Part shown: positions 38,494 to 47,559 of the stretch, one piece after another
Position numbering within the stretch: position 1 is the first letter of the stretch
Layout of the letters: each line of letters starts with the position of its first letter
Source of the DNA: Granulosicoccus antarcticus IMCC3135
GTDB taxonomy: Bacteria; Pseudomonadota; Gammaproteobacteria; Granulosicoccales; Granulosicoccaceae
Assembly (NCBI RefSeq): GCF_002215215.1
Contig: NZ_CP018632.1
Span: 1,010,001-1,074,000 of the forward strand
Reading direction: 5' to 3'
DNA length: 64,000 nucleotides
Made by a program: the position numbers and the translations under genes
The notes under the pieces: model-generated
Database searches by the model: none
What the model saw: only the letters and a program-made list of their open reading frames with translations
Told to the model about the DNA's origin: nothing

Positions 38494-38612
38494 GCTGTGC
38501 GCCTGCATCGACAGGCAGGTCACAATTCATCACGTCAGGCTACATTCGTCGAGCGATAAGTGACTGATTCACCGATATACTGCCAGCGAACCCGCAGAAG
38601 CTGACAGAACGG

Positions 38613-40937
38613 ATGCATCGTTACCTTAGAATAATGTGGGCCCTCGCGTTTGCGATGGTTGTGGGCACGGCCTGTGTGCAAATGCAGCCAATCGGTGAAC
38701 CTGAGACGGTGGTCGGGCAGGTGCGTGCGGAGCTGCCCGGGGACGCGATTGACAGGGTGGATTTTCTGACCGACGTCAAACCGATTCTCGACAATCGTTG
38801 TGTCGCCTGTCATGCCTGTTATGACGCCCCCTGTCAGCTCAAGGCAACGGCTGCTGAAGGCATGGCACGTGGTGCGACTCAGTCTCAGGTCTATCACATG
38901 ACCCGCATCTTGCCGGCGGAGCCGACGCGTCTGTTCGTCGATGAGCAGACTACTGCCGGTTGGCGGGACAAGGGGTTCTTCGATGTGCTTGGTAAACAGC
39001 GCGACGGCAATGTTCAGGCCGGGTTGGTCAAGCGCTTTCTGGACCTGAAGAGCCAGCAAGCACCAGAGCAGTCAGGCGTGCTGCCTGATACCTACGATGT
39101 CCGACTGGGACGTGAGAACGAGTGCCCGACAGCGAGCGAGTTTGATAGTTACGCCGAACGACATCCCGAAGGCGGCATGCCTTACGCACTACCGGCATTA
39201 AGTGATGAAGAGCAGGATATTCTGGTGCGCTGGCTGGATACCGGTGCCCCGTACAGTAGCAAGGTCGTAACTGGGGCAGAATTTCAGGAGGAGCTGGAAC
39301 GCTGGGAATTGTTCCTGAATCGTGACTCCAACAAAGGGCGTCTGACTTCACGCTATTTGTACGAACACCTCTATCTTGCACATCTGTATTTTCCTGACAT
39401 TTCTGCCAATACTTTTTTCCGAGTGGTCCGCTCTGCCAGTCCGCCGGGCGAACCCATTCAGTATATCGGCACACGGCGGCCGTTTGATGACCCAGGTGTC
39501 GAGCGGGTGTATTACCGCCTCATGCCCGAGCGCGAAACGATCGTTGCCAAGAATCATAATCCCTATGTGCTCGATGCGGCCAGGCTGGCGCGGTTCGAAG
39601 CGTTGTTCTTTGACAAGGACTATGCAGTTGACAAGCTGCCGGGCTACAAGGCGGATAGCAATGCCAACCCGTTCGTGACCTTCGCAGCTTTACCGATGAA
39701 GAGCCGTTACCGGTTCATGCTGGAAGAGGCCCGATTCACGATCGCCAATTACATTCGCGGCAGCGTCTGTCGCGGTCAGATAGCGGTCAGCGTTATTCGT
39801 GATCGATTCTGGGTGGTGTTTCTGGATCCGGACTCTGCCATGAATGAGGCCCTGGCAAGTTTCCTGCCGACCATGAGTGGTGAGCTGGCGCTGGCCAATA
39901 GCAATGACTCCAGCAACGCGCTGTCACCCCTGTTGCACTGGGGGCACTACGAAAAGCTTGAACGCGCGCATCATAAAGCGCGTGATGAAGCACTGACCCA
40001 GTGGTTCTCTGATCGTGATATTTCTGTGGACCTGCTATGGAACGGTGACAATGGCGTGAACCCCAATGCAGCCTTGACAGTACTACGTCACGGTAACTAC
40101 GCCGCCGTTGAACATGGCTTGCTGGGCCAGACGCCACCGGACACAGCCTGGGTCATTGACTACCCTCTGCTGGAACGCATTCATTATCTGCTGGTGGCAG
40201 GCTATGACGTGTTCGGAACCCTGGGGCATCAGCTCACCTCAAGAATGCATATGGATTTTTTGCGTATGCAAGGGGAGAAAAATCTCCTGAATTTCGTGCC
40301 TGCTGAAACGCGAAAGCAGATAAGAAAACAGTGGTATCGCGGAGCCCCACAAAGCGCGCTGGACTACATGGCCAACCCATCCTACGACAAGGTACCTTTC
40401 ACCGGCATTGATTATCAGACCGATGAGCCTCTGATTGAACTGTACGGTTTGATTGGCGAGCGACTTGAAGCCATACAGCCTGCTGATCTGGCCGTTGATC
40501 AGAAGCTGGCGACACTGGAAACATTCAAAGGCGAGAAAACCACATTATTGCCACAGGTGATGTTGCTGCGCATCGATGGTGATGAGTCAGATTATGTCTC
40601 GATTATTCGTAACGATGCCCACTTGAACATGAGCTCGGTATTTGACGAGGCCAAGCAATTGATCCCGGCGGAGAATACGGTGACCGTACTGCGGGGTATT
40701 CGTGGCTATTATCCCAATGCACTGATGCAGATTGATGAGGCAGATATCGGAGCCTTTGTAGACAGCGTGCTGTCACTCAGCGATGAACAGAGTTATTCAC
40801 GTCTGCTGGATGATTATGGAATTCGTCGATCAAATTCGAATTTCTGGGCACTGAGTGATGAGCTACATGCACAGTGGAAAGAGAGTGATCCGACCGGGTT
40901 TGGTATTCTGGATTACAGCAGGCTTGAGAATCGGTAA
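38613..40937 (+). CDS. cti: Fatty acid cis/trans isomerase
   Basis: A 774-residue Cti-family enzyme. A hydrophobic N-terminus (LRIMWALAFAMVVGTACVQM) targets it to the periplasm. A c-type heme site C63-V-A-C66-H67 (ILDNRCVACHACYDAPCQLK) follows. Family segments are obvious along the chain: TGAPYSSKVVTGAEFQEELERWE, RYLYEHLYLAHLYFPD, SRYRFMLEEARFTIANYIRGSVCRGQIAVSVIRDRFWVVF and DVFGTLGHQLTSRMHMDFLRMQGEKNLLNFVP. The enzyme turns cis- into trans-unsaturated phospholipid fatty acids without desaturation, lowering membrane fluidity under solvent, heat or salt stress. Length agrees with Pseudomonas and Vibrio homologues. The stop codon sits in the loop of an intrinsic terminator. Confidence 0.96.
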   Translation: MHRYLRIMWALAFAMVVGTACVQMQPIGEPETVVGQVRAELPGDAIDRVDFLTDVKPILDNRCVACHACYDAPCQLKATAAEGMARGATQSQVYHMTRILPAEPTRLFVDEQTTAGWRDKGFFDVLGKQRDGNVQAGLVKRFLDLKSQQAPEQSGVLPDTYDVRLGRENECPTASEFDSYAERHPEGGMPYALPALSDEEQDILVRWLDTGAPYSSKVVTGAEFQEELERWELFLNRDSNKGRLTSRYLYEHLYLAHLYFPDISANTFFRVVRSASPPGEPIQYIGTRRPFDDPGVERVYYRLMPERETIVAKNHNPYVLDAARLARFEALFFDKDYAVDKLPGYKADSNANPFVTFAALPMKSRYRFMLEEARFTIANYIRGSVCRGQIAVSVIRDRFWVVFLDPDSAMNEALASFLPTMSGELALANSNDSSNALSPLLHWGHYEKLERAHHKARDEALTQWFSDRDISVDLLWNGDNGVNPNAALTVLRHGNYAAVEHGLLGQTPPDTAWVIDYPLLERIHYLLVAGYDVFGTLGHQLTSRMHMDFLRMQGEKNLLNFVPAETRKQIRKQWYRGAPQSALDYMANPSYDKVPFTGIDYQTDEPLIELYGLIGERLEAIQPADLAVDQKLATLETFKGEKTTLLPQVMLLRIDGDESDYVSIIRNDAHLNMSSVFDEAKQLIPAENTVTVLRGIRGYYPNALMQIDEADIGAFVDSVLSLSDEQSYSRLLDDYGIRRSNSNFWALSDELHAQWKESDPTGFGILDYSRLENR

Positions 40938-40947
40938 GCCTGTTTTT
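40919..40947 (+). terminator. Rho-independent terminator overlapping the cti stop
   Basis: CAGGCTT (40919-40925) pairs perfectly with AAGCCTG (40936-40942) around a 10-base loop and is followed directly by TTTTTAT. The cti stop codon TAA (40935-40937) straddles the loop end and the right arm. Confidence 0.8.
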
Positions 40948-40973
40948 ATAGCTATTAACGAGGTTGATTGAAC

Positions 40974-40982
40974 ATGTCTCTG
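40974..40982 (+). pseudogene. First three codons of a dinB-family gene, cut off by an IS200/IS605-type element
   Basis: ATG-TCT-CTG, preceded by GAGG and followed directly by the element end at 40983. Joined to the sequence resuming at 44140 (GTA-AAG-CAG...), it restores M-S-L-V-K-Q-F-Q-L-M-G-D-Y-N-R-W-M-N, a normal DinB N-terminus, in frame. Confidence 0.8.
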
Positions 40983-41120
40983 TTGACGTCCTCCCCTCCC
41001 TGAAGAAAAAAAGGGGATTCCTACGGCGTTCAAGCACATGCCTGAATCGCTTCGGTGGGTTCCTGCTTCACTGGGGCTGCCTTAACTGCATGTTCGTGCA
41101 ATTCAGGTCTAACGTCCCCT
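40983..41120 (-). ncRNA. Predicted omega-RNA (reRNA) scaffold at the tnpB 3' end
   Basis: In IS200/IS605 elements the TnpB guide RNA overlaps the tnpB 3' end and the right end, and its guide is copied from the flank just outside the element. Here the right end folds as TCCCC...GGGAGGGGA and ends GACGTCAA; the flank then reads CAGAGACATGTTCAATC on the minus strand. Boundaries of the 5' part are guessed from family size. The second element at 60.8 kb has the same conserved end, supporting a functional RNA structure. Confidence 0.4.
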
Positions 41121-42268
41121 CCACAGGCCATCACGGCGTGTCCCGCCGCTACGATATTCTTTGCCGCATTAACATCGGCGTTCTCTGCATGCCCACAAGA
41201 GACACAGCAGAAGCTCTCTTGAATTTTGCGGTTCTCTTGCGCTATATGGCCACAGCCTGAGCATTGCTGACTGGTGTACTGAGCCGGCACCACGATCAAA
41301 TCACCACCCGCCCACTTGAGTTTGTAGCCCAACTGTCGACGGAATTCACCCCAACCTTGATCGAGAATTGCTCGATTGAGACCCGATTTGGCCTTGACGT
41401 TTTTTCCTGGAGCTTGTCGGGTGCCGGAAGCCGAACGAGACATATTGCTGACCTTCAGGTCTTCGATACACACCACCGCGTGATTTTTGCAAATGAGGTG
41501 TGATTTCTGATGTAGGTAGTCGGCTCGGACATTGGCGATTCGAATATACAGGCGGGCAATTTTTGCTTTCTGTTTTTTCCAATTACGGGAATACTTGCAC
41601 CGACGAGCCAGCGATCGCTGTGCGTGTGCCAATTGTCGTTGAAGTTGTGTAAAGCTGTTCTTTGGCAAATGAATGACGCCGTCGCTTTGTGCGGCAAAAA
41701 TAGCAATGCCCAAGTCAAGACCAATCGCTGTTGTGGATGGGTGTAGAGGAGTATCAACCTGTTGCGCAGTTTGAATTGAAAAGAACCATTTACCGCCTCG
41801 CTCACTGACGGTGATATTGCGTAGCGTGCCGATGACATTACGGCTGTTTCGGTAGCGCATCCAGCCTAATTTAGGTAGAAAAATACGATTATTGGTCTGA
41901 TCAAGCTTGAACTGTTTGGGCTCGGGGAAGCGAAAGCTATTCCCGCGGCCTTTCTTTTTGTACGAGGGGAAAGCAGCGCGTTTGGAAAAGAAGTTCTGAT
42001 AGGCCCGATCAAGATCTTTCAGCGATTGCTGCAACGTTTGAGCGGGTGCTAGTTGAAGCCACAGTGTGGCTTGATCTTTACGCCAGGTTGTCAGGCTCTT
42101 GCACATCTGGACATAGCTGATGTACTTCAGTTCGGCCTTATGGTTCTCTTGCTGAAGTGCCAATGCCTTGTTGTAGACAAACCGGGAACAGCCTGCAAAC
42201 TGCCACAGCTGGCGGGTTTGTTCACCATTGGGGCGTAGCTCGAACTTGAAGGCTTGTAGACGTTCCAT
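41030..42268 (-). CDS. tnpB: TnpB, RNA-guided nuclease of an IS200/IS605-type element
   Basis: A 412-residue TnpB from ATG 42268 (the frame is open to 42307). The N-terminal helix-turn-helix/wedge region starts MERLQAFKFELRPNGEQTRQLWQFAGCSRFVYNKALALQ. The RuvC catalytic triad is complete: D185 in GLDLGIAIFA, E269 in VVCIEDLKVSNM, and D365 in ENADVNAAKNI. Between E269 and D365 a zinc finger CSGCG...CCVSCG is intact. TnpB uses an omega-RNA to cut DNA next to a target-adjacent motif equal to the insertion target, here probably TTAC, which helps the element keep its donor sites. No frameshift is seen, so the protein looks active. The partner tnpA is absent. Confidence 0.93.
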   Translation of the reverse strand: MERLQAFKFELRPNGEQTRQLWQFAGCSRFVYNKALALQQENHKAELKYISYVQMCKSLTTWRKDQATLWLQLAPAQTLQQSLKDLDRAYQNFFSKRAAFPSYKKKGRGNSFRFPEPKQFKLDQTNNRIFLPKLGWMRYRNSRNVIGTLRNITVSERGGKWFFSIQTAQQVDTPLHPSTTAIGLDLGIAIFAAQSDGVIHLPKNSFTQLQRQLAHAQRSLARRCKYSRNWKKQKAKIARLYIRIANVRADYLHQKSHLICKNHAVVCIEDLKVSNMSRSASGTRQAPGKNVKAKSGLNRAILDQGWGEFRRQLGYKLKWAGGDLIVVPAQYTSQQCSGCGHIAQENRKIQESFCCVSCGHAENADVNAAKNIVAAGHAVMACGGDVRPELHEHAVKAAPVKQEPTEAIQACA

Positions 42269-42388
42269 GGACTGAATAATACACTGGACCGATAGAGAGT
42301 ATGCCACAGATACCCATTAAATACTGTATTTATAAACAGCTATTAGAGGATGTATTATTACTATCGAATCAGGAAAATCTTCGAGCTA

Positions 42389-44062
42389 GTGCCTGTCCTG
42401 AAACAGTTGATTTGAGTGTTACTACCAGAATCGCATTTCTGCATAACTAAGAAGAGACTCCGCACGTCAATAAGTCAGGCAAAAGCGCCGGTTTACCGCA
42501 AATAACCACGTTTATGCCCGATTGGCGACCACGGCTCGACACAGACTTGTCAGCGGCAAGTCGTTTTCGTCACTAAAAGTCCCTGCGAGGAAGTTCAGGC
42601 TGAACTGAAGCGAACCATCCTCACCAGATTGTAGCTCAGTGCTGAGGACCAGACATACGCAACAAAACCGTCGTAGCCTTTCCACTTGGCTTTGCCCATC
42701 CCCAGTGCACGCTTGAGTTCGGAGATATTGCCCTCGATACCCGCGCGAAAGTTACGCAGTCTATCGAAGGTTTTTCTCTTTACCCCCATCTGGTGGTAGC
42801 CCAGCCCGCAACGCTTGTTGAACACGGTTCGATCAACTCCCTTTTCTCGGCCCAGCTGGACATTGGCCTGACTCGCATAGCCACCATCAGCCACCGTTTC
42901 ACCAGGCAGGCAGCCGTAGTCTTTTTCGCTTGCTTCCAACACCGGCATGAACAGGGATTTATCCGATGGATTACCGTTTTCGATATTCAGGTAGGTCACA
43001 AAACCGTCGGCCTGAGTGGCCAAGTTGATTTTGTGGCCATATTGGACATCTCTGCTGGTTTTGACAATGATGTCCGTGTGTGGCTCAAACAGAGAGACTA
43101 TTTTCTCTGAAGCCGGCACGGTCTCTTCTTGGAAAACACGGCGCTGCGTTTGATCAACCACCCTTAACAATAGTGAGCGATAGTGCTCTGCTTTTTCGCA
43201 CCATATCGTAGCGGCATCAAGGTAGATCGATTCTTGGCGAATTTTCTCAATCGCCCTCTCAATTTGTTTCAATGTCAGCGCAACACACATCAGAAATTTG
43301 GGATAAAGCGCGTATTTCACAGGCTTTTTCGCGTGGAATATCTGAAAAGACAGCGATTTTGATTTTTTGCGTTGATCCGTGAATCGATGCTTGACGCCCG
43401 TTCTTTTCGCACTGTTCGCCATCATTCTGCTCAATACTCGAACACCGTCATTCAACAGCCCACTATCCAACGGTTTCGCAATATTGCTATCAGTCACTGT
43501 ACTGTCAATGCGAACAGTATCCAAAGACAGTTCCCCTTCAATAGCCCAGTGCAATACAAACTGCTGATTGATCTGACTCAAGGTCTCGGCGCTCACTACT
43601 CGGATAGTGTTTTGCAAGACTGATTTGCTCGGCGAATGCCCAGAACGTAATCGAGCAAAAGCGCGGTAGCTGGGTGAATCAGACAAATGAAACGACAGTT
43701 GTCGGTAGCTGACACGCAGTATGCGTTTGAGAAGCAGACAACGAAAAATGCTTTCCAGGCTCAGCCCACAGGCGCCCGTTTTCGCAACATTCTTCTGGTT
43801 AAAATCTCGCTCGATCAGCGTGAGAGCGATCGGGTGTTCGTCCAACAATTCAGACAATCCCCGCAGCTGCTGGGCGTGCTCGTGCTCCGCATAGAAATCG
43901 AATATACTGCTTTGAGCATTGCGGGTCTCTCGCATGCGGGAATCCTCTTGGTGGTAGGTTTTTGTGTCGCAACTCAAACATACCAAAACCAAGAGGATTT
44001 TTTACATCTGCCGTGTAGGAATTCCTGCCAAATCAATCATTTAGGAGTTTCAGGACAGGCAC
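42389..44062 (-). mobile_element. ISNCY-type insertion sequence nested in the tnpB element
   Basis: The ends are perfect 16-bp inverted repeats, GTGCCTGTCCTGAAAC at 42389-42404 and its complement at 44047-44062. They are flanked by a direct 6-bp repeat GAGCTA (42383-42388 and 44063-44068), the target duplication. The 1674-bp element carries one transposase gene. It landed between the left-end hairpin and the coding part of the tnpB element, so it is the younger insertion. The pristine ends and intact gene suggest a recent, possibly still mobile copy. Confidence 0.88.
42595..43935 (-). CDS. DDE transposase, ISNCY type
   Basis: A 446-residue transposase from ATG 43935, which has AGAGG seven bases upstream; the frame is open to 43992. 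The N-terminus MRETRNAQSSIFDFYAEHEHAQQLRGLSELLDEHP and the DUF772-like helical region (GLSLESIFRCLLLKRILRVSYRQLSFHLSDSPSYRAFARL) are typical of IS annotated as ISNCY. Catalytic acids are the D in SLDTVRIDSTVTDSN, the D in GETVADGGYASQANV and the E in GIEGNISELKRALGM. It is intact, lies inside matched inverted repeats and is the only gene of its element. IS1182/IS5-like relatives share this fold, so the family label is less sure than the function. Confidence 0.88.
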   Translation of the reverse strand: MRETRNAQSSIFDFYAEHEHAQQLRGLSELLDEHPIALTLIERDFNQKNVAKTGACGLSLESIFRCLLLKRILRVSYRQLSFHLSDSPSYRAFARLRSGHSPSKSVLQNTIRVVSAETLSQINQQFVLHWAIEGELSLDTVRIDSTVTDSNIAKPLDSGLLNDGVRVLSRMMANSAKRTGVKHRFTDQRKKSKSLSFQIFHAKKPVKYALYPKFLMCVALTLKQIERAIEKIRQESIYLDAATIWCEKAEHYRSLLLRVVDQTQRRVFQEETVPASEKIVSLFEPHTDIIVKTSRDVQYGHKINLATQADGFVTYLNIENGNPSDKSLFMPVLEASEKDYGCLPGETVADGGYASQANVQLGREKGVDRTVFNKRCGLGYHQMGVKRKTFDRLRNFRAGIEGNISELKRALGMGKAKWKGYDGFVAYVWSSALSYNLVRMVRFSSA

Positions 44063-44139
44063 GAGCTAGACGAAAAAGAGGCTCCGCCTCTAGCGCTATC
44101 CATCCCCGCCCTGAAGGACGAGGCTTTCCGCGCGTTGGG

Positions 44140-44667
44140 GTAAAGCAGTTCCAACTGATGGGCGATTACAACCGCTGGATGAACGAAAGTCTGTATGAGG
44201 CTGCATCCACGTTGCCGCCAGCTGTTCTGGCTGAAGACAGGGGAGCCTTTTTTTGCTCGCTATTGGGTACCTTCAATCATCTGCTGGTTGCCGATACCAT
44301 CTGGTTGCAGCGGTTTGCTCATCATCCAGGCCGATTTTCAGCACTAGAGCCCTTGCTGAATAAACCGACAATGAGCACGCTTGATGAGGTGTTGTATGAA
44401 GACTTTCAGCAGCTACGTCAGGCAAGGCAGGGTATGGATGAGATGATCCTGGCTTTTGTCAAGGAAGCGAAAGAGGCTGACTATGAGCAGCTATTGGCCT
44501 ATCGGAATACGAAAGACATTGCATTCCAAAAGCCGTTCGGCTCTTTGATGTTGCACTTTTTCAATCATCAGACACATCATAGAGGGCAGGTGACGGTGTT
44601 ACTGAATCAGTTGGGAGTTGATTGTGGGGTGACTGATTTGCTGGTGCGGATTGGGGAAGAGAGCTAA
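44140..44667 (+). pseudogene. DinB-family protein gene, 5' end separated by a tnpB element
   Basis: The sequence resumes in frame as VKQFQLMGDYNRWMNESLYEAASTLPPAVLAEDRGAFFCSLLGTFNHLLVADTIWLQRF. The metal-binding histidines of the DinB four-helix fold remain (TFNHLLVAD and FFNHQTHHRGQVT). The first three codons lie at 40974-40982. An internal ATG at 44158 could start a protein lacking about 10 residues, if the element's left end supplies a promoter. DinB/DfsB proteins are metal-dependent enzymes such as bacillithiol or mycothiol transferases; this one's substrate is unknown. The gene is otherwise undamaged, so the disruption is recent and precise excision would repair it. Confidence 0.82.
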
Positions 44668-44739
44668 AAGCTGCATTCGCGGTATCGAACGAGAAGCCTT
44701 CGTAGGTAGCCCGGCCCAGTGGGCGCCAATATCAGAGAT

Positions 44740-45051
44740 TCATTGATCAGTACGCTTACGTATGGCTACTTCTATCCAGATGAAAATCTGGGTAAGAAAA
44801 ACAGACAGACCGCCAGCCCAGAAACTACACAGCAACGTATTCTGCCAGTCCGTAAAACTTTTTCCACTACCAAAACCTAACGAGGCAAGCATGGAGTTCG
44901 CAGTTACAAAAATGATCGAAATAATAATTATGTAGAAGAAGGTCCGTTTACCTTGAGTTGGTAAATTAATCCAGTGTAATTTCAAACATATAAACATGGA
45001 AATATAATAGATCGGAAAGTTAATAACAGCCAAGAATAATGAATCACTCAT
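44740..45051 (-). CDS. Hypothetical membrane protein
   Basis: A 103-residue protein with three to four hydrophobic helices: SLFLAVINFPIYYISMFICLKL, TFFYIIIISIIFVTANSMLASLGF and TLLCSFWAGGLSVFLTQIFIWIEVAI. I do not recognise a family. Base composition is more AT-rich than the surrounding genes, and it sits between an interrupted dinB gene and decayed IS66 remnants, so it may be acquired DNA. A clear ribosome-binding site is lacking. Confidence 0.55.
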   Translation of the reverse strand: MSDSLFLAVINFPIYYISMFICLKLHWINLPTQGKRTFFYIIIISIIFVTANSMLASLGFGSGKSFTDWQNTLLCSFWAGGLSVFLTQIFIWIEVAIRKRTDQ

Positions 45052-45225
45052 GTCAAAATATTCTCATATGGTTGGTACGCAACAGGGTTGACATGATACT
45101 ACTCGAAAAAATATCACTGAACGTCTCATTGGAATATAAGTCCGAGCGCAAATCCCACCTGGAGTATTTCTTCCAGCTGTTAGCCCCAAAATAGCGGCTT
45201 CTATTTAAGGAAAATTGATAACTAC

Positions 45226-45946
45226 TCAGCCCACTGATACGATAGCTGGATTGAAGGCCTGACCTTGGAAGCTTTCGCGCAGGGAATCAAGTACATTGCG
45301 GCCCTGTTTTTTCGCCGTGGAAATGTAGCTACGAATCCGACAAAAGATGTCCGCACCTTGCTCGGAACGAAAGCAGCCCGATATCTTTAGTTTGGCCTTG
45401 ATCATTCGCACATCACGCTCGGCCAGATTATTATCAAATGGCAGCGTCAGATCATAGAGAAATGCGAGCGTTTCAGCCTTGTATCTGAATAGCCGATCAT
45501 GCAGGTTCTTCACCTTGTGTTGTTTGGCTCGCCCCGCTTCTTTGTCGTTGAAATTGGCACCACCGGCAGTTCGGCGCGCCCCTCGCGCAATATCCGATTG
45601 TAGCGTCGATCGTAGTGGTTAATGCGAGACTCATCGAGCATTAAGGCTCCCTTGACCCGAGCCTCATCGGTCTCCTTCTTGGCGCCCAGCAGGCAGGTGA
45701 TCAACTTCTAGGCCCAGCATCTGTTGATGCTGCTCATGAGCATGGATGAGCTCACGCAGAAAGTGAGCGCCACACAGCACATGAAGGATGGCGAAGCGGA
45801 AATAGCTGGCCCAGCAGTCATGTACCGCGTATCCCTTGAATCCGTCAAGTATGCCCATCTCCATCATCGCCTCATGCCCACGTTTGAGGTGCCGACGGTA
45901 ATAGGTCGCGTGCTCGGTGGCGGCCACATGCAGCCACTGCAGCTGC
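45226..45946 (-). pseudogene. Decayed IS66 transposase, C-terminal part
   Basis: Three overlapping minus-strand frames together encode the C-terminal half of an IS66 transposase. They read QLQWLHVAATEHATYYRRHLKRGHEAM, then GILDGFKGYAVHDCWASYF and CGAHFLRELIHAHE. A frame change near 45700 leads to [33 protein letters not shown], and another near 45515 to [48 protein letters not shown]. At least two frameshifts inactivate it. Its N-terminal half continues at 47561-47905 on the other side of an inserted IS66 element. Confidence 0.85.
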
Positions 45947-47559
45947 GTAAGCGTTCACAGCGTTGGAATAGCGTTTTCTGACTATGTAGGCTATTCTGAA
46001 GAAAAGGCCCTGCGAGTTTATTAGCCATCATCGTGCCCGATCCTCATCTATCAAATCCACCCCAAACGCTTGATGAGGCTCGCACTCAGATCGAGCAATT
46101 ATGGGGTGTGGTCGGTCAGTTAGAATCGATAGTCTCAGATCTTAAAGCGCAAAATGAGGAGCTTGTTGAACAGATTCGAGAGCTGAACGAACGCATGGGC
46201 AAAAGCTCGCGTAACTCCTCCCGTCCACCCTCTTCAGACTCCACCTCGCAACGAGCCAACCGAAAAAAGAAACCCAGATCTACAAAACGAAAGGGTGCGC
46301 AGCCGGGTCATGAAAAGCACGAACGCCCGCTGGTACCCGAAAGTGATGTCGATCAGATTCAGCGCTATTTTCCGACCGCGGCCTGTGGCTGTGGTGGCTC
46401 TATTTTTGTCGATCCCGAGCCACGCTGTCGTCACCAGGTGTTTGATATCCCGGTGGTGCGTTTTTCAGTGATTGAGCATCAGCTGTTCGGTGGGCAATGC
46501 AACGGGTGTGGCAAACATCATTGCGCCCAGACTCCCGATAGCGTGCCTTCGGGGCAGATGGGCCCCAATCTGGTGGCACTTATCGCTCATCTGTCCGGGC
46601 GTTATCATTTGTCGATTCGTAATATTCAGGATTATCTGGTTGAGCACTGGCAGTTGCATTTCAGTCTCGGTGCCCTCTCTCAGGCTCAGGCAAAAGCGAC
46701 GAGCGCATTAGGCGACCCGTACCGACAGATTGGCGATTTTGTTCGCCAACAACCCGTGGCGCATGCCGATGAAACACGGCATTTTCGCGGCAATGAGTGC
46801 CGTTGGCTGTGGTCGTTAGTGTGTGTGCAAGCTTGCTATTTCCTGACACAGGCCTCGCGCGGCAAAGAGGCTGCCGATAGGCTGTTAGGCGAATTCACAG
46901 GGTATTTGGTCACTGATGACTACGTGGGTTATAACCGTGTACCGGAAAGTCGTCGTCAACTGTGTTGGCCGCACCTGATTCGAAAATTCATCGATATTGC
47001 TGGACGGGTAAGCAATGGCGGCAAGATCGGACGCCGACTTTTATTACTTGCCCACGCGGTTATCCGCACCCGACATCGATGGCAAGATCAACTCATCGAC
47101 GAGGCCGTTTATTACCGGCGAATGCAGCGACTACGCCGCAGCTTTCACCAGACGCTGGAGCGAGGTGCCCGGCTACGAATCGATGGGCGAACCAAACGTC
47201 AATGCCAACATCTTCTCAAGCGAGAATCGATGTGTTGGACCTTTCTCAAAGATCACAGAATCCCGCTAGACAACAATAGCGCTGAGCGTGCGCTTCGGCC
47301 CTATGTGATCTGGCGCAAGTTGAGTTTTGCCACTCAATCGTATCAAGGCGATCAGTTTCGTCCTTTGATACTGAGCATCGTGGGCACTGCACAACGGATA
47401 GGGATCTCAAGCTATCAGTTTATCCGCATCGCGTGTCACCAGTCGATGATTGAGGGCGAGGTGAAAGTGCGCTTCCCGTTTGATGCGCCTCGGTTAGCGA
47501 CTAGCTGAAAGAATCAGTTGCGGTTCCTACACCCCGCATGCAGGACCGTGAACGGTTAC
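45947..47559 (+). mobile_element. Intact single-gene IS66-family element nested in an IS66 remnant
   Basis: The ends are imperfect inverted repeats: GTAAGCGTTCACAGCG at 45947 and, on the complement from 47559, GTAACCGTTCACGGTC. Both sides carry TGCAGCTGC (45938-45946 and 47560-47568), an 8-9 bp target duplication as IS66 elements make. Removing 45947-47559 and one repeat rejoins the older transposase as V-G-K-Q-L-Q-W-L-H-V-A in frame. The element lacks the tnpA and tnpB accessory genes of classical IS66 and has a single transposase gene. Confidence 0.85.
46033..47508 (+). CDS. IS66-family transposase (TnpC type)
   Basis: A 491-residue intact transposase. An N-terminal coiled coil (ARTQIEQLWGVVGQLESIVSDLKAQNEELVEQIRELNERMGKSS) leads to the IS66 motif SSRNSSRPPSSD. 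A zinc-binding domain (CGCGGSIF and CNGCGKHHC) follows. The DDE core has AHADETRHFRGN, YLVTDDYVGYNRV and the final PLDNNSAERALRP with the catalytic glutamate. The start codon may be ATC/GTG-like near 46033 (GTGCCC). It is not closely similar to the decayed IS66 transposase into which its element inserted: the DDE surroundings differ. It cuts and pastes its own element. Confidence 0.9.
   Translation: MPDPHLSNPPQTLDEARTQIEQLWGVVGQLESIVSDLKAQNEELVEQIRELNERMGKSSRNSSRPPSSDSTSQRANRKKKPRSTKRKGAQPGHEKHERPLVPESDVDQIQRYFPTAACGCGGSIFVDPEPRCRHQVFDIPVVRFSVIEHQLFGGQCNGCGKHHCAQTPDSVPSGQMGPNLVALIAHLSGRYHLSIRNIQDYLVEHWQLHFSLGALSQAQAKATSALGDPYRQIGDFVRQQPVAHADETRHFRGNECRWLWSLVCVQACYFLTQASRGKEAADRLLGEFTGYLVTDDYVGYNRVPESRRQLCWPHLIRKFIDIAGRVSNGGKIGRRLLLLAHAVIRTRHRWQDQLIDEAVYYRRMQRLRRSFHQTLERGARLRIDGRTKRQCQHLLKRESMCWTFLKDHRIPLDNNSAERALRPYVIWRKLSFATQSYQGDQFRPLILSIVGTAQRIGISSYQFIRIACHQSMIEGEVKVRFPFDAPRLATS

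Follow-up and report, generated by a model that had tools for sequence, protein, structure and literature searches.

A DinB-family gene (dinB) on the chromosome of Granulosicoccus antarcticus IMCC3135 has, we conclude with high confidence, been split after its third codon by a tnpB-only transposable element of IS608 type (IS200/IS605 family), which entered seamlessly and was later hit by a second insertion sequence (IS), of the ISNCY family. The gene lies in a 64,000-nucleotide stretch, here called the window (NZ_CP018632.1, positions 1,010,001 to 1,074,000, in a genome of one contig with 7,783,862 bases), whose own numbering is used throughout (Table 1). A preliminary description made from the letters of this DNA had placed ATG-TCT-CTG at 40974-40982, TTGA from 40983, the far end of the element at 44139 and GTAA at 44140-44143, and all of these were read directly at those positions. 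Its proposal that removal of the element restores the reading frame holds as well: the joined flanks (MSLVKQFQLMGDYNRWMN...) stay in frame as far as the stop at 44667 (178 codons plus stop), and the resulting 178-amino-acid protein aligns without a gap with its seven closest homologues (175-178 amino acids, 67-76% identical, on short contigs; 8000 candidates with the most common words were scored). Six of these seven begin MSLVQQF and the seventh MSQVQQF, matching MSLVQQFQLMADYNRWMN or nearly so. The residues from 44158 onwards score 90.4 bits against the DinB family (Pfam PF05163; gathering cut-off 23), ATG or GTG stands at the predicted first codon in 63 of 89 readable relatives (90 entered the count and one was cut off), and a relative labelled Granulosicoccus sp. 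is 62% identical.

The ends of the element were fixed independently of dinB, by sister copies elsewhere in the genome (five that are 91-96% identical in the tnpB part, two at 73%): the five close copies share identical ends in different flanks, so that the ends are not guesswork. The element lies in minus orientation, starting at 44139 beside TTAC (44143-44140) and finishing with TCAA (40986-40983). Passages of PMC5934647 give for IS608 the tetranucleotides TTAC/AAAG (left cleavage site and guide) and TCAA/GAAT (right), and both pairs are present here. Among 13 left ends read (this genome supplied nine, counting the window's, and genome G012 four), 11 combine TTTAC with AAAG at the base of the hairpin and two, in L014 and L015, combine TTTAT with AAAA, and all 11 right ends read run GAAT, hairpin, TCAA; these counts are what a script searching by these very motifs found, not an unbiased sample. 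No right end was obtained for L019 or for a second left end in L145, and the table of ends omits L018 and L020, which match the nested IS, as well as the short and divergent matches L016 and L017. In L014 and L015, copies that carry tnpA, the C-to-T change in the target is paired with a G-to-A change in the guide, a natural paired change (AAAG/TTAC versus AAAA/TTAT) that agrees with the IS608 base-pairing rule. Compared with IS608 of Helicobacter pylori, as given in passages of PMC5934647, the window element shares TTAC kept at the left end, AAAG, GAAT, TCAA and the lack of a target duplication (here at the empty sites of sister copies); it differs in having no tnpA, in holding a nested IS and in an extra T before the target, found at all 13 left ends. 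The earlier assignment to IS608-type transposition, from the TTAC target, the TCAA right end and the absence of a target duplication, is thus borne out by the sequence and the sister copies.

Seamless insertion could be followed at the empty sites of two sister copies. Eight joins, that of the window among them, were sought in 48 genomes of the family, with six candidates scored per genome. L011 (G000:C1, about 3540460-3543790) is another copy of the element that splits a gene near its start; the gene is uninterrupted in G019 (L157), which spans the join with no insertion or deletion, in the same frame and at 75% identity over 804 columns. The L015 join is also spanned by G019 (84%), with a 3-nucleotide gap at the join and with the join placed 2 nucleotides off. 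In G012, the L009 join had a weak match (67%) and the upstream flank of L012 ends at the join; three G012 insertions sought as empty sites in the window's genome gave no match, which shows little. Together with the joined protein for the window copy, the two sister sites indicate insertion without loss or duplication of the target. Because no base was lost or duplicated, the dinB halves remain in register, and because seamless removal is the rule in the IS200/IS605 family, the precision of the split is unsurprising: the arrangement, with a second IS nested inside, reflects what this known transposon family ordinarily does, and it illustrates cleanly how an IS608-type element can enter a gene seamlessly.

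A tnpB element does fill 40983-44139, as the preliminary description had it, but the interval is a nested pair rather than a single element. The inner IS has 15-bp terminal inverted repeats, an 8-bp target duplication and a transposase that passes the curated NCBIfam cut-off for ISNCY, with nothing notable to set it apart from that family. One long tnpB element, considered as a candidate for the whole interval, is ruled out by this transposase and its target duplication, and IS1182 was rejected as the identity of the inner IS (93.1 with that model, below its cut-off of 270; ISNCY scores 388.6 against 325). The 8-mer CGAGCTAG, duplicated in the window, occurs singly at the same place in four of the five close sister copies and in diverged form in the fifth (L012); no further full ISNCY copy was found in the genome. 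With 1672 bp of the interval belonging to the nested IS, about 1.48 kb remain for the tnpB element itself. The ISNCY target duplication shows that the IS arrived after the tnpB element, and the order of events is dinB, then the tnpB element, then ISNCY.

The TnpB protein aligns with the solved ISDra2 TnpB (8bf8) over residues 3-387 (E = 5.3e-51) and has RuvC-like and zinc-finger parts, with three acidic residues matched by eye on the alignment. As the preliminary description had noted, there is no tnpA: none of the 12 matches to the TnpA family (Y1_Tnp) in the genome falls within the window, which leaves the element without a Y1 (HUH) TnpA of its own. The tnpB-only elements of IS200/IS605 are called the IS1341 group and, like the window element, hold an isolated tnpB between palindromic ends; only the nested IS sets it apart from them. 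Since the family includes such elements, which are mentioned in passages of PMC8612924, the lack of tnpA marks a non-autonomous element and not a non-member. Elsewhere in the genome, at 3815234 and 7483560, are two identical 146-amino-acid TnpA genes whose ends are similar. In the history that we strongly favour, the tnpB element, presumably moved by TnpA supplied in trans, was pasted as single-stranded DNA directly 3' of TTTAC, on the antisense strand over dinB codons 4-5; dinB was thereby cut off from its native start, ribosome-binding site and promoter, and an ISNCY-family IS later jumped into the tnpB element. For ISDra2, whose target is TTGAT as against TTTAC here, passages of PMC8612924 describe a TnpB RNA guide taken from the right flank and a target that serves as the transposon-associated motif (TAM). 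By analogy, the guide here would be the dinB start and the target the TAM, so that TnpB should cut a restored dinB allele on element-free chromosomes and thereby keep the element in place.

Three results weigh against this history. Folding energies do not single out the hairpins at the window element's ends, the left one being matched by 126 of 200 shuffles and the right one by 66 of 200; the gene cti, which precedes dinB in the window, adjoined dinB at none of the 90 loci searched, some with short flanks; and no empty dinB allele was found at the locus among the 48 family genomes. The preliminary description had expected relatives to share the joined N-terminus and an empty site reading CTG-GTAAAG, of which the first stood at the protein level (MSLVQQF or nearly) and the second did not in G065, where the bases at the join read CTC-GAACAC. 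Because no empty dinB allele was found at the locus, the join is supported at the protein level. The G065 DNA aligns without a gap across the join (70%), in a frame that has a stop further on, and alignments to L038 (of G023), L048 and L049 lie downstream of the join only. DinB matches at E <= 1e-15 occur in eight of the 48 genomes, the window's own counted (best other, 55%); in G012, G019 and G024 the cti end is present (69-76%) with no DinB match anywhere at E <= 0.001, and in G012 and G024, where open reading frames (ORFs) were listed, a different gene on the opposite strand follows cti. That cti lacks a following dinB in relatives, and that only three codons lie upstream of the element, would fit an upstream ATG-TCT-CTG belonging to something else and a merely coincidental join; we find this scarcely credible, given the ungapped MSLV or MSQV starts of the closest homologues and element ends fixed independently by the sister copies.

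The insertion of the tnpB element likely inactivates dinB. With the native start, ribosome-binding site and promoter lost, DinB is probably not made, or is made only weakly from the internal ATG at 44158; no second DinB of the same kind was found in the genome. Improbable, in our view, is a working 169-amino-acid DinB from that ATG, for which the insertion would have trimmed only nine residues: the frame is open, passes the Pfam DinB cut-off without those nine and is the one predicted in the protein collection itself (P0002), but F7 and L9 in the lost part are invariant across ten aligned sequences and, by eye, no good ribosome-binding site precedes 44158. Gene prediction will call this remnant a DinB gene from the internal ATG, which is a warning. 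We give still less credence to a reversible on/off switch, in which trans-acting TnpA would excise the element at a frequency sufficient for some of the population to regain dinB. Loss of the element would indeed restore the dinB frame exactly, the frame past the insertion has no stop, and the two identical TnpA genes have similar ends; however, the nested IS doubles the element's length, a run of T forms the loop of the right-end hairpin, whose folding is no better than that of shuffled sequences (for the G012 copy L145, the right end reaches -10.1 kcal/mol, equalled by 1 of 200 shuffles), TnpB should cut the restored allele, and no excised allele was observed, although one assembly cannot show excision. 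Reversibility is unlikely, and the preliminary description's 'reversibly inactivated' is unproven in the face of the 169-amino-acid internal frame, the weak right-end hairpin and an intact TnpB expected to oppose loss.

The part most worth following, and one that matters more than the split of dinB, is an association of a group IIC intron with the ends of these elements. A complete intron of about 1.84 kb sits at the position equivalent to 44095/44096 in four sister copies (in L009 at L009:3502-5338, minus strand), and the same left-end site is used in L014, where the intron is interrupted, and in L019, which holds a fragment; in all six copies (L009, L010, L011, L012, L014 and L019), the site reads GGGATGGATAG/C, the slash marking the intron's place. 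A seventh, internally deleted copy (L168, from 1507) stands just after the right-end hairpin in another tnpB element, at GGATGT/CAA, splitting the cleavage site between T and CAA. Every intron copy in the genome whose 5' end could be read, seven in total, thus follows an IS200/IS605 end hairpin; left out of this count, from 14 matches, are four of 45 bases and a 79-base 3' piece (L171) without a 5' end. The intron was assigned to group IIC from its class C reverse transcriptase (RT; closest solved protein GsI-IIC, 446.6 bits), a GUGCG 5' end, domain V at the 3' end and the upstream hairpin; its ribozyme parts match Rfam, domain V at 36.8 bits, below the gathering score of 40. Identity among the five long copies is 97.4-100%, with L019 at 93% over 105 bases; among the four close hosts, the tnpB parts show 90-95% identity to one another and 73-78% to L014. 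Intron identity above host identity (the introns of L009 and L012 are identical, their hosts 90.0%) suggests that the intron entered the host elements separately. In 369 genomes of the class, the exact left-end-plus-intron pattern was found in the window's own genome only (6 places), and a right-end pattern was found in none of the viral contigs searched.

Fourteen plasmid relatives of the intron were read, hand-chosen from at least 5000 records and from 226 records. On plasmid 2 of Polaromonas sp. JS666 (L182, from 2125; RT identity 70%), the intron sits at this right-end position too, after a TnpB gene, and the right-end motif GGGAGGATGT/ or GTGGAGGATGT/ precedes both this intron and those of Escherichia coli plasmids (GTGGAGGATGT in all five E. 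coli copies read); of two E. coli copies tested, L188 has remnants of tnpB beside it and L187 has none. At L182:2125-5840, two group II introns adjoin each other in tandem: the 3' end of the first is exactly where the second starts, and the CAA of a tnpB element's right end follows as 3' exon. The other relatives read, eight of eight, follow terminator-like hairpins, as judged by eye. In a tree of 19 rows, the two target classes are separated by one change (support 75/99; 0 of 500 shuffles as low), with 10 of 15 inner branches open and two long E. coli rows; the second tandem intron of Polaromonas, counted in neither class, groups with a terminator intron and is a counter-example in the tree. 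We think it probable that a group IIC intron lineage has specialised on IS200/IS605 end hairpins, with the window element an unoccupied target, and hold this a little less firmly because several plasmid introns are near-copies (L187 and L194; those of P. veronii and Leclercia; two of Sinorhizobium) and because of that grouping of the tandem intron.

Terminators and attC sites are named as group IIC intron sites in passages of PMC7923331 and PMC3522654. The introns here resemble those in having a GsI-IIC-like RT and a hairpin just upstream of the site, and differ in that the hairpin is a transposon end. That introns occur in insertion sequences is already known, since the E. coli intron E.c.I4 sits in IS3-like transposase genes (a passage of PMC3522654), and our literature search found no description of group IIC introns in IS200/IS605 ends. 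If the association is real, one hairpin-favouring mobile element parasitises the hairpins of another, and a right-end intron between the TnpB RNA scaffold and its guide would make guide production dependent on splicing.

Table 1. Features of the split dinB gene and of the elements within it (window coordinates)
Feature	Position	Strand	Basis
tnpB element, IS200/IS605 family, IS608-type ends, 3157 bp including the nested IS	40983-44139	-	Ends common to sister copies in differing flanks
Right end: GAAT (41020-41017), weak hairpin with long T run, TCAA cleavage site (40986-40983)	40983-41020	-	Sequence; IS608 tetranucleotides in passages of PMC5934647
Left end: hairpin (44123-44104), AAAG guide (44127-44124) at its base	44104-44139	-	Sequence; guide rule in passages of PMC5934647
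Target site TTTAC (IS608: TTAC), kept beside left end	44140-44144	-	End table of 13 left ends
Unoccupied intron site (sister copies hold a group IIC intron)	between 44095 and 44096	-	Sister-copy comparison
Nested ISNCY-family IS, 1672 bp, perfect 15-bp terminal repeats	42390-44061	-	Sequence; sole full-length copy found in genome
ISNCY transposase gene, longest frame, TTG start	42595-43992	-	NCBIfam NF033593, 388.6 bits vs cut-off 325; Pfam DDE_Tnp_1
Target duplication CGAGCTAG, copy one	42382-42389		Sequence
Target duplication CGAGCTAG, copy two	44062-44069		Sequence
tnpB, 411 amino acids, RNA-guided endonuclease family, intact frame	41030-42265	-	Pfam HTH_OrfB_IS605, OrfB_IS605, TNB; NCBIfam guided_TnpB above cut-off; 8bf8, E 5.3e-51
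Expected 16-nucleotide TnpB RNA guide CAGAGACATGTTCAAT, right flank covering dinB start	40967-40982	-	Analogy with ISDra2; rule in passages of PMC8612924
dinB first three codons (ATG TCT CTG), severed from remainder	40974-40982	+	Read directly; homologues begin at same codon
dinB remainder from codon 4; internal ATG 44158 opens 169-amino-acid frame	44140-44667	+	ORF reading; Pfam DinB E 1.6e-25 for 44158-44667

An Rfam scan of 38500-46000 gave no match up to E = 1. Among the sister copies L009, L010 and L013, tnpB shows discrete inserts of 15 bp, which are in frame, and one insert of 11 bp (L010), which breaks the frame; the inserts have similar G+C-rich letters, one being common to L009 and L010 and another to L009 and L013, and of the genome's four occurrences of the 13-mer GGGCGGCCTTCCG, two are within tnpB copies. 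Past dinB, ORFs at 45226-47508 on both strands resemble, by eye, pieces of IS66-type transposases, and the stretch after cti seems insertion-rich.

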